A DNA stretch of 64,000 nt from Bolinopsis microptera (taxonomy: Eukaryota; Ctenophora; Tentaculata; Lobata; Bolinopsidae). Position numbers and translations under genes: made by a program. A model generated the notes under the pieces. It was not told the origin of the DNA. It worked only from the letters and a program-made list of their open reading frames with translations, and ran no database searches. Shown piece by piece: positions 47,695-63,709 of the stretch. The first letter of the stretch is position 1; every line of letters begins with the position of its first letter. The stretch covers positions 17,933,669 through 17,997,668 of the forward strand of contig NC_087072.1 of NCBI RefSeq assembly GCF_026151205.1, given 5' to 3'.

Positions 47695-50600
47695 ATGGAA
47701 GATGACAATGATAGTGACAAGGAGAACAAGGATCCATCAACTGTTCCAGTCATTCAGCTAACACCATTGTCCAAGAAAAGACGTGGCAAGCGAAGAAGAG
47801 ATAGAGGGGTTGCAAGTCACAGTACTTTACCATACACTTATCCTTTGGAATTCAATGAGGTATTTTTCTAATCATATCATTGTCATTAAGAGTAAACTAT
47901 AACATCATGTCTGTTTTGTGATACAGCAAACAGTGTTAGCTGTTACTCTTTGTTGCTAATACAATCCAATTTTTTGCTTAAATCTAATCTTTTGGCAGAA
48001 AACATTAATACTTTTATTGCCACATTATGTCGCTATAATAACTGGTGTTAATTGTTAAATATAATCTATCATGTAATTGCATTCGACCAAGGATGCACAG
48101 CTTCAATTCTTGACCACTTCTTTTTTCAGGGGTCTTACATTTTCCTGAAGGGAGTCGAGATTTGGCATCCAGGTAAAGTGATGCAAGTGACTAGTCCATT
48201 CAATATCATCTGCTACTCCTTCCTTGACACCAGTATCACTATCACCTCCAGAAGTAAACTATCATCCTTTTTAAACTATGGTTGCAAAGTTGATTTCGAT
48301 TTATTAGAGTCTGATGAAGCATATCAGAAAGGGATCATCGAATGCATTGCCAGTTTTGCTGAAGTCCATCGTCCAGATTTGCTCAAGTTGCCTGACAGAG
48401 ATCTGATGCTGCTTGACTGGGCAAGACTCGGTTTTGTTGGCTGCCATCTTTTACAGAGCAATATACCCCAAATTTTAGTCGACTATAAAACGGATCAGCA
48501 TCCACCAACGTTCTGCGAAGATAGTGAAAGGCCTTCATCCAGTAGTGACTGGAATACAGATGATTGCACCCCACCCAAAGTACGGAAACTGTCCTTACAG
48601 ACCCAAGACAGCGGTTATTCTTCACCGATTACTCCCACGGTTTTGAAATCACCCTTGTCTTCACGCTCGATTAATGATCTGCAGACACGTGATTGTTGCA
48701 GACTTGCTGAGGAGTCAGAAGTTGGGTCTTTTGTTCTGGGAAAGCTTGTTCGATATGGATGGTGGCCTGGACTTGTAAGTTTTTCAATAATGCTCATTGT
48801 CTCTTTGTTCTGACTTTGTTTAACTTTCATCCAACATTAATCAAACTTAAATTAATAATCAATCGAGTCGAGAAATATGTCAGATTAAGTTAATGAGTTA
48901 TTGTTTGTCTGGGCTATTTTGTATAACCTATACTCATTTCAGATTGCAGACCCAAATAAGAGTCCTCGAGAGTGCCTACCCAACGAACGACTAGTTTACT
49001 GGTTTGGAGATTGCACTAAATCTGTCATAGATATCAAAGACCTTGTATCGATAACAAAGTTTGCTGAAGTTTACCAGCCTTCTAAAAAAGGGATATACAG
49101 GGTTGCGTTATACGATTTCTTGTCCGACGCAGCAGAAAGTTGCAACTACACCGAGGTCAATGCTCCGGACTCTGTGAACATAGACGAAACTGCTCTGAGT
49201 CGACTCATAAAGTGGGCCCTAGACGGATTTACTCCTGGGGGCCCTCCAAGCGATTGGGCTCCTTCCGATCATTATAACACGAGAGGCAGATCTGGTTTTA
49301 TTAAACGACTAGATGTAGCAAGTAAGCCTTTCAGGGGTGCAGTCTGTGTTGCCAGTCAAGTGTGTGTTGCTTGTCAAGAGAGGGAGGCGGCACACCCTCA
49401 CCCTCTGTTCGAGGAATATAAACTTTGTGACACTTGTTTGGAGGATTTCTCGCAGTGTGCCTTTCTTTTCGGTGACGATGGTGCAGGTGAGTCCTATTTG
49501 ATCACATTCGTACACTATTACTAAAACGTATGCTGTATTTTTTCCATCCACCATTTTGAAAAAATATAAAGTGGAAGGTTACGAATGGTCGTTTTTGCAG
49601 AAAAACGTGGATTTTGGAGATAGCAGTAGGCGGGTCTGAATATGGTGTCATTCCTTACTTCCGTCCGTTACCATGCAACGAAAAAGCTGCGCGCGCGCGC
49701 AGAAATTAATGGCTGATGCATAGTACTTCCTACAGATGAGGGGTCTACTTAGGACTCTGCCTCGCGTGACGTCACGTTAATGTAGATAAATGATCGCGCG
49801 ACAAATTCAGTCTTTCTGCTAATTACACTTAAAGTTACGTTTCCATTCTTTTCAATTGCAATTTACGAACCTTTAATCTTAATTGATGAAGTACAAGTTG
49901 TTAATCATTTTATTTCTACTGGGATGTTCCACCGACTTAGCACCGGATAATATAATAAAATATGATATTTGTTTTGATGAGGTAAATGTTGCTGTTACAG
50001 GGTTTTTCTTGGAATGTTTTGATATGTTTTGTATGGTATTGTGTTACTTTGGAAACCAAGTACTATTGCCTACAATAGATTTTACCTCGAGGAGTTTGGT
50101 TAATGTGCAATATTACTTTTGTCATAATGTACACATTTGGTTATTATTCAATCGACTGACGTTTGTTTACAAGCACTCTGATTACGGTGTCAGCTCATTC
50201 TACACCTTCACGAGAACATTCTTCGTGCGGGGAGCTTTAGCAGCTACTTCTGTCCTGATTGTGCTGATGTTTGCGTCGTCGATGAACACTGGAGTCCTCG
50301 TAGGTTATGGTGAGTTCGTTTACGGTTGAAATTGCACGTCTCCTACCTGTAGTTTCGTTTCCTTGAGCTTTTCTGTGCTCGATTAGATTGGCTGTTGAGG
50401 ATATCATTGTATAATAAATAGCTAACATATTTATAGGTCGTCTGCTCTCTACACCCAGTCTGTGGACGGTTCTAATGAACCCTGAACAGCTTTTCGTGGT
50501 CGCCCTTCAACCACAGAACACCTTGGCTTTGGCTTCAGGACCTGTGTTGAGTGTTGAATTTTATTTGGAGTTTATTTTTCAAAGTTTTTTGCAACGTTAA

Positions 50601-53600
50601 CATCATGTCAACATTGAATTTAATTTATAATCTGGTTTTGGCTCAATTAATTTATTTGACATCTACAGTTGAAGCTGTTAGCGCTCAGTTACAGAACCTC
50701 GAGGTTGCTGGCCTACTGCCATCTAGTCCTGCAATCCTGGTTCTTGAACTGCTCGTAAACGCTACAGCTGGCGACTTGTCTCCTTCTGTTGTTTGGTCCA
50801 GGATGTGCCTAATACTATCAGGCGATGTGGAAACTAACCCGGGACCCGTACAGTTTAAGTGCAACACCGCCAGCTCCTCTCCTGAGAAGTTCGTCTATAC
50901 GGATAAGAACGTGAGTAATTAAATGTTTTGATTTTACTATAATATGAGGAATATGTACACATTTTCTAGATTGTTGTACAGTAAACCCCAACAGATGTAC
51001 AAGCATTACAAGTACAAATTACACTTCATTTATGTTTGTGGGAGCTTTACATTACACGATGATTGAGAAATAATTTTTTTCAGGTTGTGGTTATAGGAGA
51101 TTCGATGGTTAAATACATTAATTCCGAACGTCCCGAAGAACCTACACGTTTATATCCGCAATCATACCGTGGACTACATGTTTTTTCTTACCGTGGTATG
51201 GACACCCAGCACGTGGCAGACGAGGTAACCAACATCAATCCTCGGAAACTGCCGCAGATAGATGCTGTGTACGTCATGGTGGGAACTAACAACATAAAAG
51301 GTTGGTGTTCGTGTGATAGTGTTACGTTCGCAGAAATGTTTGCTGACCTTATAAACTGTGTGAAATTTAAGTTTCCGAAGGCTACTGTTTTTGTGAATAT
51401 TGTTTTGCCTCGTTTTGATTATCCTAACTGTAAAAGATCACATTTTCTTTCTAAAATTAATGCATTTAACGCTGAATTGGTTTCTTTACGTAATAAATTT
51501 AATTTCGTATTAGTTTCAAACCCTTTTCACCTTACTCCTAATGATGCTTTCAATTATATCCAGCGTACAGATAATTTACATTTCAGCTACACAGGTAACA
51601 TTTTGTTTAAAAAAATTGTAAAGGCTAACATTCACTGCTATTTTAATGGTTTTGCTAGTATCCCCACTCGTCTCCGTTATCTAGTTGACAGTTCACTGAT
51701 CCCTGCATCCCCTTTACCCTCACAATTTCCTGATCAGTCTAATAGCTTGTGGGATTTAACTCCGGGTTATTCTCCATCTCCTGCCTCTGCACCTGCTCCA
51801 TTTGCTGCTCCGGCTCCTCCAGCTTCTGCTGCTCCGGCTCCTCCTGCACCAACACCTGCACCTCCGGCTCCTCCCGCACCTGCTCCTGCTGCACCTGCTC
51901 CTGCTGCACTTGCTCCTTCTGCTGCACCTGCTCCTGCTGCACCTGCTCCTGCTGCACCTGCTCCTGCTGCACCTGCTCCATCTGCTGCACCTGCTCCTTC
52001 TGCACCTGCTGCACCTGCTCCTTCTGCACCTGCTGCACCTGCTGCACCTGCTCCTTCTGCACCTCCTGCACCTGCTCCTTCTGCTACTGCTGCACCTGGT
52101 CTATCTGCTGCAATGGCTCCTCCTGCTACTGTTGCACCTGGTCTATCTGCTGTACCGGCTCCTCTTGCACCTGCTCCTCCTGCTACTGCTGCACCTGCTA
52201 TTTCTGCACCTGCTCTATCTGCTGCACCTACTCCTACTGCACCTGCTCCACATGCTGCATCTACTACACCTGCTCCTGCTGCACCTAATGCACCTGCTAC
52301 TTCTGCATCTGCTCCATCTCCTGCTACTGCTCCTCCTGCTACTGCTGCATCTACTACACCTGCTGCACCGGCTCCTCTTGCATCTGCCCCATCTACTACA
52401 CCTGCTCCTGCTGCACCTGTTCCATCTGCTGCACCAGCTCCTCTTGCACCTGCTCCTCCTGCTACTGCTGCACCTGCTCGTTCTGCACCTGCTGCATCTG
52501 CTGCACCTACTCCATCTGCTGCACTGGCTCCTCTTGCATCTGCTCCACCTGCTCGCGTACCTGCTCCTGCTAAATTCCATACACCAAAACCTGCTCATGC
52601 TGCACCTGATACGCCTGCATATGCTCCTGATGCACCCGCACCTGTTCATGTTCCGGCTGCACCTGCTCCTGCTGCACCCGCACCTGCTTCATATATTTCG
52701 TCCAAGTGTCCGGAATGGCTTCATACAAGGTTAGCCTATTACAAAAATCTACTCCCTGTGCAAATTGCTGAACATGTTGAGGAACTTTTACTATCAAAAG
52801 TTAAACAAGGTCTTTTCATTAGACAGGGTGTCAACTCATCGCAGGTCCTTCTTTTCGGCAAAGATAGATATGTTTACAATAGGGCTACTGAACATCTAAG
52901 TCCTATCCCCATTCACTCAGAGCCTATACTAGAAACTATTTTGTCCATTGTAAATGTTACATTGTCAGCTAGCTTTAACAGCATATTGGTCAACTTTTAT
53001 AAAGACTCCTCTACCATCCTACCATATCATAAGGACGATGAACGGCACTTGGACAAATCTGCCAAAATTGCAACACTATCTATTGGGGCTACACGTTACA
53101 TGGACTTTGCCACGTGTAAAAGGAACCGCCCCTCGTTCAGTCAACAGCTTCTGTCTAATTCGTTGTTTGTTATGGACCCTGAGTCACAGGTAGCGTACTT
53201 CCATCGTATAGCTCCCGGTAGCAAATCTCCTCTTTTCCAAGGCTACCGTTTCAGTCTTACTTTTAGAACACTTAAGCCAAGATCTATTGAAGGGGTGTCC
53301 TCATCCGGCCCTGCTTCATTAAAGCCCTACACCCTCGATAAGACTGAAGGGGTGTCCTCATCCGGCCCTGTTTCATTAAAGCCCTACACCCTCGATAAGA
53401 CTGAAGGGGTGTCCTCCTCCGACCCTGTTTCATTAAAGCCCTACACCCTCGATAAGACTGAAGGGGTGTCCTCCTCCGACCCTGTTTCATTGAAGCCTTA
53501 CACCCTCGATAAGACTGAAGGGGTGTCCTCCTCCGACCCTGTTTCATTGAAGCCTTACACCCTCGATACGACTGAAGGGGTGTCCTCCTCCGGCCCTGTT

Positions 53601-56600
53601 TCTTTAAAGCCCAGCGTCCCTGATGAGAATAACAGAGTAAAGGTGTCACCATCATCCTCCGTTCTTGAAGCACCTATTGTCCCCATCATGAGTCACAACC
53701 CTATTTCTACGGAGTTTCGTCATCTGCCACTGTTTCTTCGGATTCCTGCACCTTTTATAAGACTAACAGGTTGTCACCATCTGCCACTGCTTCCCTGCAC
53801 CCCTGATATGACTGAAGGGACCGGGGTGTCATCATCTGCTACTCATCCTACGGAACCCCTTATCCCTGATATGACTGAGGGGTCCGGGGTGTCATCAGCT
53901 ACCATCCAGGGAAACCCCCTTCCCCCTGATAGACTGAAGGGAGGGTGTCATTTTTGGTACTCACCTAGGGAAACCCCTTATCCCCTGTTGATAAAGGACC
54001 GGGGGGGTCAACGTACTTCCACGGAACCCCTTCCCTGTAGAGAGGGACCGGGTGCCACACGAATGAGCCTTTTTCCCAAACGTTGCCCCCCACAAATTTA
54101 GTAGGGGGTGGGGACAAACAACCTTTCATTGCATGAAGCTCAAGAGAAGAAGCTGGTACCCCAAGGCTGGCAACCCCTAATTTAAGCTTCGCAGGGATAG
54201 GAAAAAATTTCATCGATCCCTGAATCGCAGTTCAGGAGTAAGACCATATTATCGCCACGATGAAGCTATGTACAAATTCCACTCAGGACCCCACTCCGAA
54301 AATGACTCTTATGCTTCAAGTGACAAAGAAAAAAACGACGCCTCAAAAATGGACATCTTTCAAATGGCGGGATAAAGATTTAAAAAAAGGGGAAGTTGCA
54401 ATTCAGTTTTTTTCGAAGGCACGGCCGTGCTTCTAGACAAACCCACAGCGTTAAAAAAATTCGTCAGTAGAGTATCGAAAGCCAAAACGAGAAACAACCC
54501 CACCCAGTCCAAGACCCAACAAAAAGAACGATCTCGACGTGCAAGCTCGGGCCCCATGCCCAAACACCGAGCCAAAGATAACAAAATGAACGATCCGAAG
54601 TTTCAACCTGGATCAAGACAACCCCTGAAGAACGCAAGAAAGACCCCAAAATCGTTTAACCCAAAAAAGAAGGGCGGCGCAAGACAGATGAGAAAAAGGA
54701 AAAGACAAATAAAAAGCGAGCGCGTTGTTTTCTCTCAATAAAGTAGGAACGATTTTCCCAGAAAATCTGTCTCCGTTCCCCTTCGTCAAGAACCCCAAAG
54801 TAATAGAGGGTTACAAAACACCCCCAACCCCCCCTGCATTTTACACGCATTAAATCACGGCCCCAAAGCTTACTGGAAAAGCTTTTTCCCCCCACGACTT
54901 TTCTTTTCACACAGTTACGTTACTGAAAATAAAAAAATTTGATCTCCTTTTAAAGGGCGGAACTTTCTTAAAAGAGATTTTTTTACTTTGGATTGGGACT
55001 TTGTTTCGTTTTCCCAGGGCCCCAAAAATTTTATAGCTAAAATTTGAAACAAAGCGCTAAAAATGCCCTTCTGCCCAGGTTTTTGAAAAACTGCCCATTT
55101 TCTCACCCAAGGTTTTCCCAAAATCAATTTTTACACTTCAGGAAACCACACCCCCAAATCACCCATCAAAATTTTCAGCCTGCATAACTTTTTCGTTCGG
55201 GACCACCCCGAGGTGCCACCCGCCAAAGGGGTTTCCATCCCCTTTTAAGCATAACTCAAAGCACCCCAAAACCCCTCATTTGACCAAAGATGACAACATT
55301 GTAAAAATTTTTGTGCTAAAAGGAAGTACCCAAAATATGCTTGTTTTAAAGTCACAACTTTTTTTCCCGTAGGGTTGTTAAAGGCAAAGGATATCTTAAA
55401 GTTTAAGCTTAATATCCCCCATTTAAATAAAGCGAAAAAAAGGTTTTGTAAACTTTGCAAGTTATTTAAAGGTGGAAAGTTTCCCTAAGTGAAATTTGAA
55501 ATGTTCCTGGATCAGGCGACCTCCCATCCCCTTCGCCAAAACCCCAGAATGCCGCAGTATCCCAAATTATTCCATTTATGAAAATTTTATCCCTTTTGGT
55601 GGTAAAAGTTGTTTTAAAACCCCCTGTTGAAAATGTCCCATCCAACCGACAAAAATGCAGCAGCCCCCGAAACTTTCTGAGTCGGATTTTGGGGGCCGTA
55701 TAAAAAAAGGTTGGTACAAGCTGTTGTAATGTCTATTTTGTTAATCCTGATAAATGAAAATTATTAGTAGGGCCTTAAAAAAAACAATCCTTTTTATAAG
55801 AATGTTGTTTTTTCCCAAATGATTTCATTAAACAAAATTTACGATGGTGAAAGCATTCTTTGACTCGTAATGAGAGAACCCGTTGTTGTTTCTTGTAAAA
55901 ATTTTTTAAACTTTTTTACGAATGTCATAAGAGGGTAGTCTTTGGGGTATGCCTTTTGAGTCTTGCATCCAAAAAACGACCACTGAGAAATGATGACGGT
56001 AAAAAACCTTTCAGGAATTTCAACCGGCAGGGTAGAAAACCCGTCTTTTTGTAATGGATAGAAACCTTGTCATTTTTGATTGTTTCCTTGGGTAAGGGGC
56101 ATTAACGCCCGCAAAAGAAATGATCCATTAAGAAAAAAACTTCCCCAAAAATCCCCTTTAAAAAATTACGTGAAAGCAAATAACTCTAAGCATAGAAATA
56201 CGCTCAAATCCCGGTATATTTTACATGCAGAATGGATTGAACGTGACGCTACTTAGTTGATTTGCCCACCCCTGCCAAAGGTTTAGAATAAGGCGGTCAA
56301 ACATTACCGCGGGCCCTCAGATTTTAAATGCAAAAGGGGTCGCTTCAAGTAAATGATCTTATAAATTCATGAAAAATTGAAAGGACCCACTTATTACAAA
56401 GACAAAAACGATGGAAGCAGGTGGGAAAAGCTAGGTAATTTTACTTGGTTCTTTAAAATTTCCTTTCGATTGGTTACTCAGTTTCCGCATTTGAAATTAT
56501 GGGTAGGAACCCCGAGAAATTTTTAAAGTGAATAAGGGGTTTAGGAAACACGAGCTAATTAAAATGGGCCCCGTCAGGTGCCAGTCGACCGCTATTCCCC

Positions 56601-59600
56601 AAAATTCTATCTTATCTGATTGAGGATCAGGGTGTCATGGGGAGGCTTTGGCTCACTTTGGTAGAAATGAGTTTGGGGGCCGTGGATCCCCTCACCTTCA
56701 TATGCTTCTCAAAGTTAGTAGGATGCCCCTATACCAGGTGAGAGTCCCATCGAGGAAGTAATAGAATTTATGATAAGTATGTTACAACTCATTATCCAAC
56801 ACTTGAAGAAGATCCAGAGGTTCACAAACTTATAAAGCTTCAGCTGCACTCCCATACAAAAACATGTCAGAAAGGTTGGTAAAGACATATAGCCGATTTC
56901 GGGTTTCCCCAAAAACACTTTCTGAGGTTACAAAATTGTCTTAAAGGAAATCAAGAAAATGATGACAAAAAAGTCAAAAAACAACCAAAAGTCTGCTGAC
57001 AGTGAAACCCAAAGTTGAGGCTCATAACTGCGATCTAGAGATGTCATCTACAAACGTAAAACCTGCAGCGAAAATGTAAATACATACAATCGTCTTCTAC
57101 TCCTTGCTATACAAGGGAACATGGACGTTCAAATTTGTATGAGTCCGTGGGATGTTGTTAATTACGTTATTTCGTATGCCACCAAAAATGAGAAAGAGGT
57201 TTGTGACGCCTTGAAAGATGTTATTAAAAATATTGATCAGCCGAGCAATAAGAACTCTAAAGAAGCCCTTAGACAGCTTGGTAATACTTTTTTAAATTCT
57301 AGGTCCGTCTCCGTCCAAGAAGCTATTTTTCGTTGTCTGCCCCAGTTGAGTCTCTCCCATTTCAAACCTTCGGTTCTTTTCATTCCTTCTGACATGCCAG
57401 GGGATAGACATGGCATTGTCAAACCTCGTTCTACCCTACAACAGCTGCCAGATGATTCAGAAGATGTGTTCCATAACTCGCTTCTTGACAAATATCTCAA
57501 TCGTCCTGATGATTTAGAGTCGATCTGCTGGGCTGAATTTGCTTCCTTATACGTTCGGTTAGACAGAAACGTAACTTCTAAAAACAGACACAAAGTAATT
57601 ACTCTTAAATCTAATCTTGGCCAGATGATAAGGCGAGACTCGCCTCAAGTTATCAGAAGTAACAAAAAGTCTCGCACAAAGCAGCCTGAAAAGTATTACT
57701 ATTCGAAACTGTGTTTGTACTTTCCGTGGAGAAAGGAAGCTGATCTTATTGGCTCCTTTGCCACTTACCAAGAGTCATTTGCTGAGAATGTTGATGCCAT
57801 GAAACCCAACATCAAAAAGTTTGAACAATTTGACGACGATACTCTGCAAAAAATGGAAGCTGAAATAAGACAAGAGATCAAAGATTCACTTCTTGATGAA
57901 AATAAAAGGGAAGTTCTTGATGGTAGGCATCTTTTCAATCATCCCTTTGAAGGTATTGACATATCGAAGGAGGAAGAGAAGTCTGTGTTCAACGTCACTT
58001 ACAAGGAGCCCATTGTCACTGACGAACAATACCAACAAATGGTCACCAGTCTCAATGATAAACAGCGCGAACTCTTCAATATTGTAGATCATCACTCTTC
58101 CCTGGTTGCACAGGGTCACGAAGTCAATCAGCTTCTTCATTTTGTTAGTGGTGCTGGCGGAGTAGGTAAAAGTTTTCTCATAAAATGTATGCGCTCCTGT
58201 ATCTCACGCAAGTTCCCAGACAGTATCATTAAACCTAGGGTTGCTGTTGCAGCTAGCACAGGTGTTGCTGCAGCTCTCATTGACGGTCAAACTGTTCACC
58301 AACTCCTTCAGTTAGATTGTCAAGAGGGCGGGAGAATCCAACCTAAACCACTTAATCCAAAAAAGAAGATGCAAATGAGGAGGTTCTTTCAGCATGTAAG
58401 GTATATCATTATAGATGAAGTGTCCATGGTAGGTAACACAAACCTCAACCAGATTAATTCACGGTTGAATGAAATATTTGGGGTTCCTCCTGAAACCACA
58501 ATCTTTGGGGGAATCAACGTTATCTTCAGTGGTGACCTTCATCAGATTCCTGCGGTTCAACAAACTATGGTGTTTGAGACTAAAGGTATCGCTGCTCTTG
58601 GGCCTAACATTTGGAAGGATTCAATTACATTTTCTGAGCTAACGGACATAGTTAGAGCAAAGGGTGACAGTCAGTTCACGGAACTCTGTCACAGGCTTAG
58701 GGTAGGAGAGCACACCCCAGAGGATATTGAGTTGCTGGGTTCAAGGGTTGTTGAGAAACAGCCTAAACCTGCTGAAATCATGGACTCAATGGTCATTTAT
58801 CCAACCAATAGGCAGTGCAATAGTCACAATCAGGAGTGTGTTCAAGAATTGAGCAAAACCTCTTCAATAGTTAATGTTGTTGCTCAAGACAGATTCTCCA
58901 ATGAAGTTTTCAACAAATCTTCTAATTTTGGCGACAAAGTTTACGACAAAATGAACAAGAAACCCCAAGATTACACGACTGATGATGTGAACAAAACTGC
59001 TGGGTTACCAACTTCATTAAATATTGGTCCAGGAGCTAGGGTCATGGTGCGTGTTAATATTGACACCCCTGACAAAATTGTTAACGGTGTGACTGGGACT
59101 GTCCACAGTTTCCAACTCCAAAACGGCAAATCTGTAAAGGACGGTTCATGCAGTGCTAGAGACATTCGGCATGTTAATGTTATGTTTGATGATGTTAACG
59201 TCGGCAGAACCATAAAACATCATTGTGACAATTGCTGCGCTAACAATTGCACCAAGGCTGGCACTGTTCCAATTAAGCCCGTGGAAAAGGAATTTATCTC
59301 CAAAAAGAATAGTAAAACATGGCTGAAACGCTATCAAATTCCGATGGTTCTCTCTTGGGCATGCACTGTTCACAAAGTTCAGGGTTTGACTTTGAACAAA
59401 GCATATGTATTCCTCGCTGGAGCATCAAAAGGTCACTCATGGCAGTCAGGCATGGCATACACTGCTATCTCTAGGTTAACATCTCTCCTTGGTCTGCACT
59501 TCATATCTTTTGACCCCAGGCAAATTCGCACATCTAAGAAAGTTGTAGATGAGTATGCTCGACTACGTGATGTTCCTAAATTTTGTGTTCTCCTCCAAGG

Positions 59601-62600
59601 TAATAATGTTCCTGCAGCTACTTGTGAAGAAGTTTTAATAATGAGTCCCCATACCATCTGATCCCATCACTCTTCCCTGCAGTAAACCATGTAATGTGTC
59701 ATCTTCTCCCCACAACACCATCATCAACTCGCCTCCTGTATTAAAACGCCACATACCTTTTTCTCCATTAGCGGATCTTACGAAGAAACATTTCAAGGCT
59801 ACCTCATTATATTCTCCGCTCTCTATGATGTCTCCACAGCCTACTACTGGTCTCAAACGTCCTTTACCAAACTCTCCTCAAGTTCCAGCAAGTCCACTTC
59901 TAAGTAAACATCTCAAAACGACAAAGTCTCTTTCTCCTTTATACAATGCAGATGTGGTCAACAATCCGGTTATGCAAGTTCCTACCAGTTATCCACAAGT
60001 TATCTCTGAAACTGTTGGCAGGGCACATGTCATTGATTTTTTGGGTCATCCTCAATCGGCAGAAACTGCAACTTTATTACAATCTTTGGGATTCTCAGTC
60101 AATGCCTCCTTTGCTAATATCCAGGTTAATTCCAGTTGTGGTTACATCGCCTCTAGAGTCATTTCTAAACTGAAGTCCTTCCTTTCGACAGGCCAGTCAT
60201 GGTTTAACGCATCACTATTCGACTGTAACTATTGGGGAGCCTCGGATTTTGAGACAGACATATGTGCACTAGGTAATCATGCTCTTAACATTTCCGGCAC
60301 AAGTCCCGTATTCCTTTCAGAAACTAATTGCCTTGATCTTATTCCTATTTACTCGCTACATTTTCACAATTTATTATTTATACATAGAAATGATTATCTT
60401 TCCAATGTAGAACCTCCCCATAGTAAGTCTACGTTCAAAGCCCGCATCATACACCTTTGGGATAAGTTTAAGTCTAACGCACAGGTCCTTCCCCCAACCT
60501 TATTTATAGTTAATACAGACGATGGTCATGGCGTTCATTGGTATACTGTTATTTTAGAAATTGGCTCTGCGCACTCCCCATCTCATGAATTGTAATTTCA
60601 TCCTCGGCATTGTGAATGTTAGCCCTTGCACTTATAAATAATCTTACACTCTAGCTCTCATTCACTTGCAATTTATAACAATCACGAACACCACTCACCC
60701 CATACCTATCCTAGAACTTTCACAACACCATACCAGTGCTGTTGTAACGTGACTTCTTGCGGTGTGAACAGTGTAGTCAGCCTTACATTCTTACACTCGA
60801 GGTTCTGATTACACAGGTAATACAGTCGCGTTTTTAAACCAATAATCTTTTTTGTCGCCTATAATAATGCTTTACATTGATAATACTAATTAGTTTCAAT
60901 TACCTATTCACCGTTACGGTTTAAATGCCAATAAATTTAGTACATATTAATGTTCCTTTCAACATAGTTCCTCCTAACATTATTCGTTTTTCAGGAAGTT
61001 AGACGTACAACAGGACACTGAAGTTTAAGACAGAAGCTATAACAACAATTATAACATTACATATTACTACTATTCTACAATTCAATCAACATTATCTTAT
61101 ATAATTATATCTACGTTAATTTATGCTCTCCATAATTAACCAATTTCTATTATCACATTAGCAATAAATGACATGCACATACTACATTTTCCATTTAACT
61201 TGCACTCTAACTTTACATTTGTTTTACTGCAGCTATTTAATCGATATACTTTTGTTACTTTATAATTTTCAATATGTCATAAATGTCATGTTATTATCTC
61301 ATAATATATCTTTAAACCCCTGTAATATCTCAGTTATCAGATAAGATTGGATGCATTATCATATGTTAGCAAAGAGGTTCGTCCGAGCAATTTACCCGTG
61401 GGATTGTCACGTGCTAACGGAAACTGGGAAGAGTGGTTAACTGCGTGTGGTTATTGTACCTCACTATCAACTGTTCTCAGGCTAATTACCTCACCTCATT
61501 CTCCACATCTACATAAAAGGGAAGGTGTTTCTATACTTTTTTAATATAATAATACAATTATTATGCACATTAAGTTTTCTCACGCTTTCATTCAAGATTG
61601 CTTCACCACTTTTGATTTAATATTCATATAATGTAGATGTAATATTACGCACGGGACAATTACAACTTATTTCCTTTCAGATCAGTTGCTTGCTGTTTTC
61701 CAGTCTTCACATTCAGTTTCACAACTGTCAACAGTTCCTTTCATGCCATAGGCTCGCTTATAGATAAAAATGCCGTCTCCGGATCAGCCCTCCTTGACAG
61801 TTGACTCTATCATATCACAATCCATGAAATGGTTCGTAAATTAAACATTATCGTTCTATTAGTGTTCATATTTAATTATATTGGAAAAATTCTCCATTTT
61901 TCTCTGTCACCCTATGATTCCGAAGTTATATAATATACCTTATTTCAACCTATATTAGTGTTATAATCATGCAAACGCATGAAAAACTAATTGAATAATT
62001 CACTGATTTCAGAGCAGCTGTGAACACAATTTTGTCAAAACGTAACGCACACCATCGGCTGCTGATTGAGTGATATTACTTCCTAATTCACAGATCTCCA
62101 AATCTACTACTTTACACTAACCTAGCGAGACAATGGAATGAACACTTCATCTTACTGAACTAATTAACATACTGGACATTGAGACTTGAATTCCAATAAT
62201 TGGTATCATTGAAGTATGACTAAAACACATCATTTAATCTTGTATAACCACTAATTAGAAAGTGGAACAGAGGGACCAGTTTTATGCACAACATGATAAT
62301 ATTTAATAATATGTTCTCTTCCTTAACTATTTCACCGGAACCTAGATTATATCGTGTATCATTTTTCTCTGCCACAGAGTTGCGCGTTGTTATGGCAACT
62401 TTGATCTTAACGTTTGCGGAGGAACATTCAAATTAAATCTACACGCAATATTTCAGAGTACAGTCGCGCGGCTTATCAGTAAAATTAATTAAATTACCTT
62501 AACGCGCGCACTGTGTCTGAACAACATTAATTTTCCTCGATGCACAACTATTATCAATTATATTCCTTTAGCATCCACAGACAACTAAACTCGCGGCACC

Positions 62601-63709
62601 TCCAAACTTGAGCTAATTAACAATTACATTAAGCTGGTCCGGCCCACTCTAATTGCATTGTCTGACCTGAGGTTCAGGTACAACGATCAACTTTTATTTT
62701 GGTTTAATGTAACTATTCACAATTCAGCTAGTCAATTAAGCCAATTCACGTGACACAAGGAAGGAAAATTAATTGAAGGCCAATGTATTATATAATGAAA
62801 TTTGAAGAGTTTTAAGTTGGTGCAAGTGGATGGAAATCTAGCGTCCGCCGACAGCCGAACAAACGGGCGCAATTCTTGTTTCACACTGCACTAGTTTAAG
62901 AAGTGGTAAGTTAGTGTGAGCTCACCAGAAGGTTGAAGGCCGATATATTTTACGGTATTAATATTAAAGAACGGATATCAGCGTGGACTATCCTGATTAC
63001 ATGCTTACTAAAACATTGCGATGTTTATTTACTGAGCTCAAAGTAATCAGGAGATCAGCAATAGAGTGATGATTGTGGATAATAATAACCACATCCACAC
63101 GTCTGATGTGCTTTGTAATGTGTAATGTGCCTTAAAACATCATTAATTCCTCTCTTTGAAGGCTAAAGACTGTAATATGATGATGATATCACTTTCCCAT
63201 ATCAATAAATGTGTACTGTGTACTGTACTGTGTGATGTACTGTGTGCTGTACTTTTTTGCTGTACTTTTTTGCTGTACTGTGTGTTGTACTGTGTGCTGT
63301 ACTGTGTGCTATACTATGTGCTGTACTGTGTGCTGCACTGTGTGCTGTACTGTGTGCTGTACTGTGTGTTGTAATGTGTGCTGTACTGTGTGCTGTACTG
63401 TGTGCTGCACTGTGTGCTGTACTGTATGCTGTATTGTGTGCTGTACTATGTACTATACGTAGTTTTGATAGTACATAACTTATATAACACCCACACTCCA
63501 CAGGGTCCTACTGCTCTGTATGTAACGAAGGAGGAAGTTTGTTTATATGTGACGAGTCCCAGTGTGGTCGCCCCTACTGTCACGCCTGTATAACCCGGGT
63601 ATGTGGGCCCCACTCTCTGGAAATGGTGGAGAAATCTGATCCGTGGTTATGTGTGCTGTGTAACCCCGCTGGGAAGGAGGGGAACCTGGTGAAACGACCG
63701 GATTGGCAG
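47695..63709 (+). CDS. DNMT3: DNMT3-type de novo DNA methyltransferase, N-terminal part (continues past window)
   Basis: Exons 47695-47859, 48130-48774, 48943-49486 and 63504-63709 join in phase and end open at GATTGGCAG|GTAACC. After an acidic/basic N-terminus and about 200 unassigned residues, a PWWP domain starts (VGSFVLGKLVRYGWWPGL | IADPNKSPRECLPNERLVYW). An ADD zinc-finger domain follows (VCVACQE ... LCDTCLEDFSQCAFLFGDDG | SYCSVCNEGGSLFICDESQC ... DPWLCVLCNPAGKEG). In vertebrate DNMT3A/B, PWWP reads H3K36 methylation and ADD reads unmodified H3K4 and autoinhibits the methyltransferase. The catalytic domain lies beyond the window. The intron between the two ADD exons is 14 kb and holds a large Helitron-like insertion. 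The Ser-rich block before PWWP and the GSYIFLKGVEIWHPGKV region are unassigned. Confidence 0.88.
49487..49885. other. DNMT3 intron, left part
   Basis: No coding feature. A (GC)n run GCGCGCGCGCGC lies at about 49690. The left boundary of the Helitron-like element was not located. Confidence 0.35.
49886..50600 (+). CDS. Unidentified hydrophobic ORF at the start of the Helitron-like element
   Basis: Exons 49886-50309 and 50437-50600 (donor G|GTGAG, acceptor TTTATAG) join to 195 residues. A signal-peptide-like N-terminus (MKYKLLIILFLLGCS) is followed by a Phe/Cys/Tyr-rich region with further hydrophobic segments (AALAATSVLIVLMF-like near 50230) and no recognised domain. The stop codon is four bases before the ATG of the 2A-SGNH-AlkB ORF (TAAcatcATG). 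It may be a genuine protein, or an upstream or alternative reading of the same transcript. Low certainty. Confidence 0.35.
50605..54101 (+). CDS. 2A peptide - SGNH hydrolase - Ala/Pro linker - AlkB-type dioxygenase
   Basis: Exons 50605-50910 and 51084-54101 join in phase 0 (about 1107 residues). An 81-residue leader with a hydrophobic start (NLIYNLVLAQLIYL) ends in a perfect 2A motif, GDVETNPGP, where ribosomes skip the Gly-Pro bond. Next comes an SGNH/GDSL hydrolase (VVVIGDSMVKYI, VMVGTNNIKG, TDNLHFSYTG) with the catalytic Ser and the Asp-x-x-His-type block. A roughly 300-residue Ala/Pro-rich tract is followed by an AlkB-like 2-oxoglutarate/Fe(II) dioxygenase (ILVNFYKDSSTILPYHKDDE with the HxD pair, YFHRIAPG, GYRFSLTFRTL), then six 19-residue repeats EGVSSSDPVSLKPYTLDKT. 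The C-terminal 150 residues run into low-quality sequence, so the stop is doubtful. It lies in the same orientation upstream of the Helitron Rep/helicase. Confidence 0.82.
50818..50850 (+). other. 2A ribosome-skipping motif
   Basis: Encodes LSGDVETNPGP, matching the D(V/I)ExNPGP consensus exactly. The residue after the final proline is Val. In other invertebrates 2A peptides occur in non-LTR retrotransposons and NLR genes, where an uncleaved 2A can act as part of a signal sequence. Confidence 0.93.
51778..52690 (+). repeat. Coding minisatellite (Ala/Pro-rich)
   Basis: Imperfect tandem units built on GCACCTGCTCCTGCT encode APAPA-type repeats between the SGNH and AlkB domains. The array is about 0.9 kb long and gives long leucine- and cysteine-rich shadow ORFs in other frames. 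Confidence 0.9.
53288..53630 (+). repeat. 57-bp tandem repeat, six copies
   Basis: The unit GAAGGGGTGTCCTCCTCC... (57 bp, 19 residues) is nearly identical across six copies. Degenerate relatives continue to about 53990, with growing length irregularity. Confidence 0.9.
54102..57120 (+). pseudogene. Helitron Rep region, frame-broken / low-quality sequence
   Basis: Between the SGNH-AlkB ORF and the helicase, fragments of the Helitron N-terminal part are recognisable across several frames. They are ILSYLIEDQGVMG, then EFGGRGSPHLHMLL with the HUH-type HLH motif (about 56660-56705), a Cys/His block HSHTKTCQKG followed by FGFPKN, and YKRKTCSENVNTYNRLLLLA, which runs directly into the helicase ORF start. 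The stretch is full of A, C, T and G homopolymers and frame changes, unlike its right neighbour, and the transition to a clean 846-codon ORF at 57121 is abrupt. I think the Rep domain exists but is corrupted by poor sequence; true decay is the alternative. Confidence 0.7.
57121..59661 (+). CDS. Helitron Rep/PIF1-like helicase (C-terminal part, open frame)
   Basis: 846 residues, starting with the Helitron segment MDVQICMSPWDVVNYVISYA, then LRQLGNTFLNSRSVSVQEAI and the SLLDKYLNRPDDLESICWAE region shared by eukaryotic Helitron proteins. The SF1 helicase domain has Walker A SGAGGVGKS (about residue 345), Walker B IIIDEVSMV, GDLHQIPAV and the C-terminal motifs SWACTVHKVQGLTL and GMAYTAISRL. It should unwind DNA during rolling-circle transposition. 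The ATG at 57121 is probably internal: the HUH Rep half lies just upstream in the damaged stretch. All helicase motifs look functional. Confidence 0.9.
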   Translation: MDVQICMSPWDVVNYVISYATKNEKEVCDALKDVIKNIDQPSNKNSKEALRQLGNTFLNSRSVSVQEAIFRCLPQLSLSHFKPSVLFIPSDMPGDRHGIVKPRSTLQQLPDDSEDVFHNSLLDKYLNRPDDLESICWAEFASLYVRLDRNVTSKNRHKVITLKSNLGQMIRRDSPQVIRSNKKSRTKQPEKYYYSKLCLYFPWRKEADLIGSFATYQESFAENVDAMKPNIKKFEQFDDDTLQKMEAEIRQEIKDSLLDENKREVLDGRHLFNHPFEGIDISKEEEKSVFNVTYKEPIVTDEQYQQMVTSLNDKQRELFNIVDHHSSLVAQGHEVNQLLHFVSGAGGVGKSFLIKCMRSCISRKFPDSIIKPRVAVAASTGVAAALIDGQTVHQLLQLDCQEGGRIQPKPLNPKKKMQMRRFFQHVRYIIIDEVSMVGNTNLNQINSRLNEIFGVPPETTIFGGINVIFSGDLHQIPAVQQTMVFETKGIAALGPNIWKDSITFSELTDIVRAKGDSQFTELCHRLRVGEHTPEDIELLGSRVVEKQPKPAEIMDSMVIYPTNRQCNSHNQECVQELSKTSSIVNVVAQDRFSNEVFNKSSNFGDKVYDKMNKKPQDYTTDDVNKTAGLPTSLNIGPGARVMVRVNIDTPDKIVNGVTGTVHSFQLQNGKSVKDGSCSARDIRHVNVMFDDVNVGRTIKHHCDNCCANNCTKAGTVPIKPVEKEFISKKNSKTWLKRYQIPMVLSWACTVHKVQGLTLNKAYVFLAGASKGHSWQSGMAYTAISRLTSLLGLHFISFDPRQIRTSKKVVDEYARLRDVPKFCVLLQGNNVPAATCEEVLIMSPHTI
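59660..60595 (+). CDS. Putative papain-fold cysteine protease of the Helitron-like element
   Basis: The frame is open from at least 59660, overlapping the helicase stop, to 60595. A splice-acceptor-like CTTCCCTGCAG lies at 59672-59682, so it may be spliced rather than started at an ATG. The N-terminal 100 residues are Ser/Pro-rich with SPL-type repeats. The C-terminal part has VNSSCGYIASRVISKL (candidate nucleophile Cys followed by Gly-Tyr), QSWFNASLFDCNYW, and TDDGHGVHWYTVILEIG (candidate His-Trp). Cys before His is the order of papain-like proteases. Other Helitrons carry OTU cysteine proteases, but this is not a clear OTU. Moderate confidence in protease function. Confidence 0.5.
   Translation, partial: DPITLPCSKPCNVSSSPHNTIINSPPVLKRHIPFSPLADLTKKHFKATSLYSPLSMMSPQPTTGLKRPLPNSPQVPASPLLSKHLKTTKSLSPLYNADVVNNPVMQVPTSYPQVISETVGRAHVIDFLGHPQSAETATLLQSLGFSVNASFANIQVNSSCGYIASRVISKLKSFLSTGQSWFNASLFDCNYWGASDFETDICALGNHALNISGTSPVFLSETNCLDLIPIYSLHFHNLLFIHRNDYLSNVEPPHSKSTFKARIIHLWDKFKSNAQVLPPTLFIVNTDDGHGVHWYTVILEIGSAHSPSHEL
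60596..63203. other. Right part of the DNMT3 intron, non-coding
   Basis: 2.6 kb of AT-rich sequence with no supported ORF. The Helitron 3' end (hairpin plus CTRR) should be in or near here, but I could not pick it with confidence. Confidence 0.4.
63204..63455 (+). repeat. 10-bp minisatellite (TGTGCTGTAC)n
   Basis: About 24 imperfect copies of a TGTGCTGTAC unit lie 50-300 bases before the acceptor of the second ADD exon of DNMT3. It produces the cysteine-rich and histidine-rich shadow ORFs on both strands. Confidence 0.92.

Follow-up and report, generated by a model that had tools for sequence, protein, structure and literature searches.

A predicted Helitron2-type transposon with SGNH and AlkB domains fused to its Rep-helicase in the ctenophore Bolinopsis microptera

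The DNMT3 gene of the ctenophore Bolinopsis microptera contains, in one of its introns, a 13.3-kb insertion that is almost certainly an autonomous Helitron2-type rolling-circle transposon, and whose predicted protein joins an SGNH hydrolase and an AlkB-type dioxygenase to a Rep-helicase. This element (49537-62880, forward strand) was studied in a window of 64,000 nucleotides (RefSeq assembly GCF_026151205.1, contig NC_087072.1, positions 17,933,669 to 17,997,668), and its relatives were sought in the assembly of 264.7 Mb. We describe here one element, with its ends, its target, its domain order, its open reading frame (ORF) and the selection acting on its domains. Our best overall explanation, held with somewhat better than even confidence, is that of a Helitron2-type element whose AlkB domain acts on the element's own single-stranded nucleic acid.

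An earlier note on this DNA had proposed a single autonomous rolling-circle element, and all the motifs that it listed, from the 2A peptide to the protease candidate, were found again on the forward strand at the same places. The element also lies inside the DNMT3 intron, as the note had stated, though it covers 49537-62880 and not the whole of 49487-63503. Support for the single element comes from its shared ends (5' end in 8/8 copies, 3' end in 7/8) and from three copies with one open frame.

Boundaries, target site and classification

A 1-kb query taken from the middle of the element (8/8 candidates scored) revealed seven additional copies, three on C12 (c12a, c12b, c12c), one on C3 (c3) and three on C10 (c10a, c10b, c10c). 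All eight copies, window included, start at the identical base with the 5' end ATTTTTTCCATCCAC, and their flanks are unrelated. The exact 3' end GGCGCAATTCTTGTT occurs in six of the eight; c12a is the seventh with a matching 3' end (C12:2482693-2482822, 87% by BLAST), and no matching 3' end was found for c10c. Some variation at the 3' ends was nevertheless seen among copies.

The whole element and its terminal features are as follows.

49537..62880, +, whole Helitron2-type element; ends shared across copies, empty site known for copy c10b
49541..49551, +, 5' asymmetric terminal inverted repeat TTTCCATCCAC; 11-12 bp in 6/6 copies
62826..62836, +, 3' partner of the asymmetric inverted repeat, GTGGATGGAAA, 44 nt from the terminus; 6/6 copies
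62841..62870, +, 3' terminal hairpin GCGTCCG...CGGGCGC; folds in 6/6 copies

The counts of repeats and hairpins cover the six copies for which both ends were fetched. In each, the 11-12-bp inverted repeat starts at base 5, and its 3' partner ends 44 nt before the terminus and is followed by a 7-bp hairpin (6/6). Repeats of 8-15 bp are typical of Helitron2. The distance of 44 nt is beyond the 20-30 bp given for Helitron2 (PMC3627910) and inside the 38-60 bp given for Helentrons (PMC4067079). A related empty site, 84-88% identical, was found for c10b, the one copy examined in this respect. The host sequence there reads GATTTTTTTAATTA, which shows that c10b entered a T-run and that no target was duplicated; among the Ts, its exact border is ambiguous. 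Single-base insertions or deletions (indels) are also numerous in this empty site, L034. In the window copy, the initial ATTTTTT and the final TT of 49537-62880 may belong to the host T-run.

The Helitron1-type ends expected by the earlier note (5' TC, 3' CTRR, insertion between A and T) were not found, the termini reading ATTTTTTCC at the 5' end and CTTGTT at the 3' end, and a Helitron1 identity was rejected on this basis. The protein hallmark of Helitron2 was found in c10a, where an HUH Rep (PF14214, E 7.5e-23) and a PIF1 helicase (PF05970, E 4.8e-22) are part of one protein. Scanned parts of the Rep-helicase ORF gave no Pfam match to an AP endonuclease, the C-terminal hallmark of Helentrons, and this lack led us to reject a Helentron identity. 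Helitron2 elements as described by Bao and Jurka in 2013 (PMC3627910) share with the present element short asymmetric terminal inverted repeats, a 3' hairpin, a T-rich target without duplication, and a Rep-helicase lacking AP endonuclease; 2A, SGNH and AlkB do not figure in the excerpts of that report, in which the accessory protein is Fanzor. Termini very similar to those seen here, with repeats placed 2-4 nt inside the 5' end and some 38-60 nt inside the 3' end, are described together with a T-run target for Helentrons (Thomas et al. 2014, PMC4067079). Accessory cysteine proteases (OTU) are described there besides the AP endonuclease, and neither OTU nor AP endonuclease was matched in our element.

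Gene model and coding capacity

Coding features of the window copy are listed below.

49886..50309, +, predicted exon 1, hydrophobic leader whose start resembles a signal peptide by eye (MKYKLLIILFLLGC); open in the window, c10a and c12c
50310..50436, +, predicted intron 1, GT-AG; identical splice sites in 8/8 copies
50437..50910, +, predicted exon 2, remainder of the leader then 2A; open 167-aa frame in c10a
50821..50847, +, 2A (StopGo) motif GDVETNPGP; also in all 7 other copies
50911..51083, +, predicted intron 2, GTGAGT...CAG; common sites in 5/8 copies matched by script
51090..51596, +, SGNH/GDSL hydrolase domain; PF13472
51787..52690, +, Ala/Pro-rich linker with degenerate tandem repeats; sequence reading
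52701..53285, +, AlkB (2-oxoglutarate-Fe(II) dioxygenase), H-D-H-R-R intact; PF13532
53288..53612, +, 57-bp in-frame tandem repeats 3' of AlkB
54000..56700, +, dense-indel patch over the basic region, DUF6570 and most of Rep; comparison with c12a
56690..56710, +, Rep HUH motif SPHLHMLL; sequence
57028..59661, +, end of Rep (YVISYATK), then the PIF1-type helicase; Pfam PIF1 stretch 58051-58671
60017..60592, +, C-terminal Cys/His domain, candidate papain-like protease (Q-x4-SCGY ... N ... GVHWYTV); motif in three families

A single open frame runs through c10a (3388 aa), c12b (3366 aa) and c3 (3321 aa). By Pfam and sequence reading, the domain order in c10a is SGNH, AlkB, basic region, DUF6570, HUH Rep, PIF1 helicase and C-terminal domain, and the frames of c12b and c3 agree with it domain by domain; c12a and c12c have the same length but two frames each. 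Where the earlier note had seen two ORFs, the gene is predicted to consist of a two-exon spliced leader ending in 2A, followed by one giant ORF. At the 2A peptide, a leader of about 280 residues would be separated from the roughly 3,400 residues that follow. The consensus of StopGo peptides is D-[VI]-E-x-N-P-G-P, and the window motif fits it; the version found in a sister family, C9, is GDIELNPGP. RepHel proteins exceed 1,500 aa, and 2,000 aa when extra domains are present, according to passages of a review (PMC6431247).

The exon 1 leader gave no Pfam match and has homologues in the C9 and C4 families (see below). Intron 1 measures 123-128 bp by script, and the script pattern found no such splice sites in the C9 family; intron 2 measures 165-180 bp, and its phase is not uniform among copies. 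Within the window, Pfam identified an AlkB-type 2-oxoglutarate oxygenase (PF13532, E 2.2e-22) and a GDSL lipase (PF13472, E 5.2e-8) in ORF 51063-54101, and PIF1 (E 1.5e-22) in ORF 57028-59661. The string YVISYATK of this last ORF carries what we take to be the paired Rep tyrosines.

Rep, helicase and other parts appear in the window as separate pieces because one protein is seen there through damage. Compared with c12a, the one copy used for this purpose, deletion events in the window number 11-48 and substitutions 18-62 per 500 bp between 54.0 and 56.7 kb; in the 500-bp bins between 57 and 61.5 kb, there are no more than 2 deletion events and 6-22 substitutions. The left border of the patch, at about 54.0 kb, was read from the sequence. 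The sharpness of the right border suggests that this is probably an unpolished stretch of the assembly; decay may be an alternative cause. At the position of the patch, Rep is open in five other copies. The Rep fragment of the earlier note falls within this dense-indel patch. Single-base frame breaks also occur in the leader (about 50.59 kb) and between the helicase and the C-terminal domain (about 59.65 kb).

Distribution in the genome

The AlkB domain of the element was found at 11 loci (150 of 738 candidates scored), 10 of them complete (73-100% identity) and one split in two. A helicase lies downstream on the same strand at nine of these 11 loci (52 of 65 helicase candidates scored). At the other two, similarity to the element extends only to about base 6.8 kb (C10:13.249 Mb) and about 4.4 kb (C7:0.0535 Mb). 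The C7 locus is a ninth relative, with a 5' end at C7:56885-56968 and SGNH-AlkB; no Rep-helicase was found in the 9.9 kb examined, and copy c10c likewise lacks one.

These two relatives, together with the broken frames of the window, could be taken as traces of two or more unrelated insertions lying side by side in one intron, the case that the earlier note had named against its own proposal. However, the same order recurs between the same ends elsewhere and three copies have single open frames. Given shared ends and continuous frames, adjacent insertions were rejected as extremely improbable.

The ends of the element match many other places (587 first-look candidates for the 5' end and 507 for the 3' end, 40 scored each). 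Matches to both ends were paired on the same strand at C10:4982341-4984171, C6:10583212-10584244 and C10:901470-902678, which imply at least three short non-autonomous relatives (1.83, 1.03 and 1.21 kb). A further locus, C11:15484878-15500039 (reverse strand), carries AlkB, SGNH, Rep and helicase fragments in a jumbled order, as in a decayed or rearranged copy of the family; its AlkB pieces are two short fragments near the Rep and helicase pieces.

Selection and sister families

The SGNH, AlkB, Rep-helicase region and C-terminal domains are under purifying selection. The ratio of mean nonsynonymous to mean synonymous divergence (dN/dS) over five to six copies was 0.29 for SGNH, 0.21 for AlkB, and 0.08 for both the helicase and the C-terminal domain. 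For Rep, ten pairs without the damaged window copy (23 stops) ranged between 0 and 0.10. Higher values were obtained for the linker (0.58), the basic region (0.63) and leader exon 2 (0.64, a value that includes the damaged c12a with its 4 stops). Matches shorter than 70% of a domain were dropped, so that the helicase and basic region rest on five copies, and the within-family means leave out C9, c10b and c10c.

The C9 family, with a helicase 53% identical and a frame of 3226 aa, has the same order as the element: 2A, SGNH, AlkB, DUF6570, Rep, helicase and C-terminal domain. Between C9 and c10a, AlkB is 73% identical (dN 0.167, dS 1.19) and SGNH 39%, and synonymous sites are saturated in SGNH, the basic region, Rep, the helicase and the C-terminal domain. 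The closeness of the two AlkBs suggests either stronger constraint or a later exchange. Of two other families, C10:5710661 (47%) has SGNH, with GDSM on its own exon, and C4:14145331 (74%) keeps the leader. Distant families on C2, C11 and C3 (one locus each) showed neither SGNH nor AlkB by Pfam. A stepwise history fits, with SGNH first, AlkB later, and losses, though the Rep tree leaves the placement of the C9 and C10:5710661 families open as to gain versus loss of AlkB. The 5' ends of these two families look similar, with ATTTTTT(T)CCC then a GCCGAAGGC hairpin; a 3' end was found neither in the 2.9 kb 3' of the C9 ORF nor in the stretch examined for C10:5710661. No helicase or AlkB relatives were confirmed in viral contigs.

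Helitrons are known for gene capture, and SGNH and AlkB could be mere passengers with no role in transposition, as the existence of families without AlkB might indicate. Such a role-free cargo is quite improbable, however, in view of the selection on both domains within the family, the low dN of AlkB relative to its dS between families, and an in-frame fusion that is kept in three long frames and recurs in a second family.

AlkB domains in LINE-like elements

AlkB sequences are very common in this genome: the domain query from the window gave 738 first-look candidates, and all 150 that were scored were significant. The four loci examined in full context (4/4) were all like long interspersed nuclear elements (LINEs), with AlkB in ORF1 (539-697 aa) and an endonuclease and/or a reverse transcriptase in the frames that follow. 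L024 and L025 have both enzymes, L026 a reverse transcriptase and a PHD, and L023 the endonuclease only, in a frame that ends at the fetched border. This abundance of AlkB in LINE-like ORF1s may be a finding in its own right. Pfam detected SGNH in three of the four ORF1s, in the order AlkB then SGNH (3/3), the reverse of the Helitron. Among these four LINEs, the AlkB nearest to that of the Helitron is in L025 (39%, E 2e-31), followed by one at 32% (E 6e-19). The L025-type SGNH has no match to the Helitron SGNH, though the AlkB matches.

In a tree of 27 rows, three Helitron AlkBs group with four L025-type rows (support 100/99) amid other transposon rows, and the AlkB domain has probably crossed between transposon classes. 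Three presumed host AlkB genes stand apart from the Helitron AlkBs and join the transposable-element row L054. Long branches were flagged and the tree has a midpoint root only, which leaves its finer order unsure; rows L038-L057 come from search lists, and their labels as host or transposable element are our own. Capture of 2A-SGNH-AlkB as one block from these LINEs is not supported, because of the AlkB-SGNH order of the LINEs (3/3), the unmatched L025 SGNH, and the occurrence of SGNH without AlkB in C10:5710661. L025 also has a degenerate 2A-like string, SILNPGP, ahead of the endonuclease (L025:3129-4001, reverse strand).

Domain functions and possible roles of AlkB

The catalytic residues of AlkB (H, D, H, R, R, that is, the HxD...H iron ligands and Rx5R) are kept in 27/27 aligned rows. 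In a PDB sequence search, the closest solved structures were ALKBH3 (E 1.8e-12), then ALKBH2. The ALKBH2-type VFG hairpin, which goes with double-strand recognition (PMC10816986), occurs only in the presumed host row L051; it is absent in 3/3 Helitron rows and in the other transposable-element rows with letters there. Since the catalytic residues are kept and this double-strand hairpin is absent, the substrate is likely to be single-stranded DNA (ssDNA) or RNA. ALKBH3 acts on both (PMC10816986), and an ALKBH3-like activity on 1-methyladenine (m1A) or 3-methylcytosine (m3C) in single strands would be the first expectation. The LINE connection keeps RNA as a candidate substrate; the fusion to Rep-helicase favours ssDNA. 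The earlier note had proposed protection of the ssDNA intermediate; given that LINE ORF1s carry the same domain, RNA would be just as good a substrate. L051 (C5:18690250-18691150) is a presumed host ALKBH2-like gene with the VFG hairpin.

The SGNH blocks GDSM (with the GDS serine), GTNN and DNLH (DxxH) are present, and PF13472 scores above its cut-off in the window and the C9 family and below it in c10a (27.4 of 32.9 bits). The domain resembles the esterases of LINEs, for which membrane targeting has been proposed (PMC3905857), and the leader with its 2A recalls the described '2A-like' signal sequences (PMC4981915). In the C-terminal domain, Q-x4-SCGY and G-x-H-W are conserved in three families, the His part being in another frame in C10:5710661. 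The conserved His occurs as GVHW, GTHW and GIHW and is assumed to be catalytic from this conservation. These motifs are compatible with a papain-like protease. No match was found with E up to 10 in Pfam, another scan giving only DUF2415 at E 0.25, or in PDB with profile A1 or the C9 sequence; the C9 sequence has a weak PHROGs match of unknown function (E 0.0048). A VTD deubiquitinase or other named protease family was rejected, with no Pfam match and no D-x-H motif at the conserved His.

We infer all of the activities of these domains, and propose the following cycle. A transcript with two small predicted introns would yield the leader, 2A, and then a protein of some 3,400 residues. At 2A the leader would leave the ribosome and possibly pass into the secretory pathway, and the rest would act in the nucleus. 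Rep would nick at the terminal repeats, the helicase would peel off one strand, and the circle would insert into a T-run without target duplication. AlkB would oxidatively strip a base methyl, of the m1A, m3C or N6-methyladenine (m6A) type, from single strands of the element itself, be it the ssDNA intermediate or the mRNA. For the Cys/His domain, the expected role would be cleavage of the polyprotein or deubiquitination. That AlkB acts on this single-stranded nucleic acid has, in our estimate, a chance slightly above even, with ssDNA and RNA about equally likely.

Several observations weigh against the reading of AlkB as a working part of a Helitron2-type element. The 5' hairpin folds weakly and differs among copies. 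Lack of the VFG hairpin is not specific to transposons, since it is also missing in L052 and L053, both presumed host rows. Neither AlkB nor 2A was found in the C10:5710661 family, and neither SGNH nor AlkB was detectable in the 8 kb examined for C4:14145331; because sister families lack it, AlkB is dispensable for rolling-circle transposition. Finally, the copies are mosaics with no single history per copy. Exchange of modules is deduced from the mean dS between copies, far higher for AlkB (0.22) than for the helicase (0.056). Across the Rep-helicase core, from 6.5 to 11.5 kb of the element, all pairwise comparisons of c10a, c12b, c12c and c3 in 500-bp windows give 97.4-99.8% identity; before 6.5 kb (the SGNH-AlkB half) the values are 74.7-99.2%.

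A role in the RNA stage, in which AlkB would strip m1A, m3C or m6A from mRNA and so evade silencing based on RNA marks, as has been proposed for the AlkB ORF of orchid Gypsy elements, is possible at clearly less than even chances. The nearest AlkB relatives found do sit in LINE-like ORF1s, with an RNA replication intermediate, and the orchid Gypsy AlkB protein binds RNA and is a demethylase in vitro (PMC9289625). Yet among solved structures the closest are those of ALKBH3 and ALKBH2 and not of ALKBH5, ALKBH3 handles ssDNA as well as RNA (PMC10816986), and AlkB is fused here to a Rep-helicase, which handles ssDNA.

AlkB might also repair 3-methylcytosine left by host DNA methyltransferases on the ssDNA of the element, such elements prospering in methylating hosts; we consider this unlikely. 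DNA methyltransferases make 3-methylcytosine as a by-product and co-occur with ALKBH2. The host indeed has a DNMT3 gene and the presumed ALKBH2-like gene L051, but this concerns one genome, in which the DNMT3 location is one of many insertions. In krill, a paper lists alkB2 with the methylation toolkit.

More broadly, and as a tentative and rather doubtful proposal, AlkB may be a mobile counter-defence module. On this view one demethylase or repair domain for single-stranded nucleic acid would have moved between LINEs, which copy through RNA, and a rolling-circle DNA transposon, with SGNH joined to it in opposite orders, and it would let the single-stranded stage survive host base methylation or methyltransferase-born 3-methylcytosine damage.

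Relation to known systems

SGNH proteins in Helitrons (PMC4021074), cysteine proteases (PMC4067079, PMC9741609) and TET/JBP dioxygenases (PMC12730594) were known before. The Texim SGNH genes of fish Helitrons are related to CR1 retrotransposon proteins (PMC4021074); Texim is a separate captured gene, whereas SGNH is fused here in frame to Rep-helicase, and the excerpts of that report mention neither AlkB nor 2A. Fungal TET/JBP proteins are likewise nucleic-acid dioxygenases that both Helitron1 and Helitron2 carry and that have spread from one transposon lineage to another, but they act on methylcytosine, and that study found no retrotransposon bearing them (PMC12730594), in contrast to the AlkB domain, also present in LINEs. 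The orchid Ty3/Gypsy element also carries an AlkB, which is of ALKBH5 type and forms a separate ORF in a long terminal repeat element (PMC9289625). VTD is a Cys protease domain within a Helentron ORF, as here, with an invariant D-x-H (PMC9741609) in place of a conserved His in G-[VTI]-H-W. No AlkB in a Helitron or LINE ORF1 was described in the open-access titles and abstract openings that our searches listed. As the searches did not extend to subscription papers or Repbase reports, this speaks only weakly for absence.

Accessory enzymes under selection point to limits on transposition. The presence of AlkB on a rolling-circle transposase and in LINE ORF1s suggests that single-stranded intermediates do face an obstacle in base methylation or alkylation, a reading that parallels TET/JBP in fungal transposons. 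The element also points to a giant Helitron polyprotein split by 2A, and to retrotransposons and DNA transposons having exchanged a protein domain.

The host intron

The DNMT3 intron (49486-63503, 14 kb) separates two zinc-finger parts of the ADD domain; by eye, the upstream exon ends at 49485 and the downstream exon begins at 63504. Pfam matched the ADD parts in these flanking exons with PF17980 (E 1e-4, below the cut-off) and PF21255 (E 1.4e-11). As the earlier note had allowed, the location in DNMT3 is probably a matter of chance, one among many insertion sites. The end of the intron holds a tandem array of a 12-bp unit, TGTACTGTGTGC, in about 20 copies (window 63212-63451).

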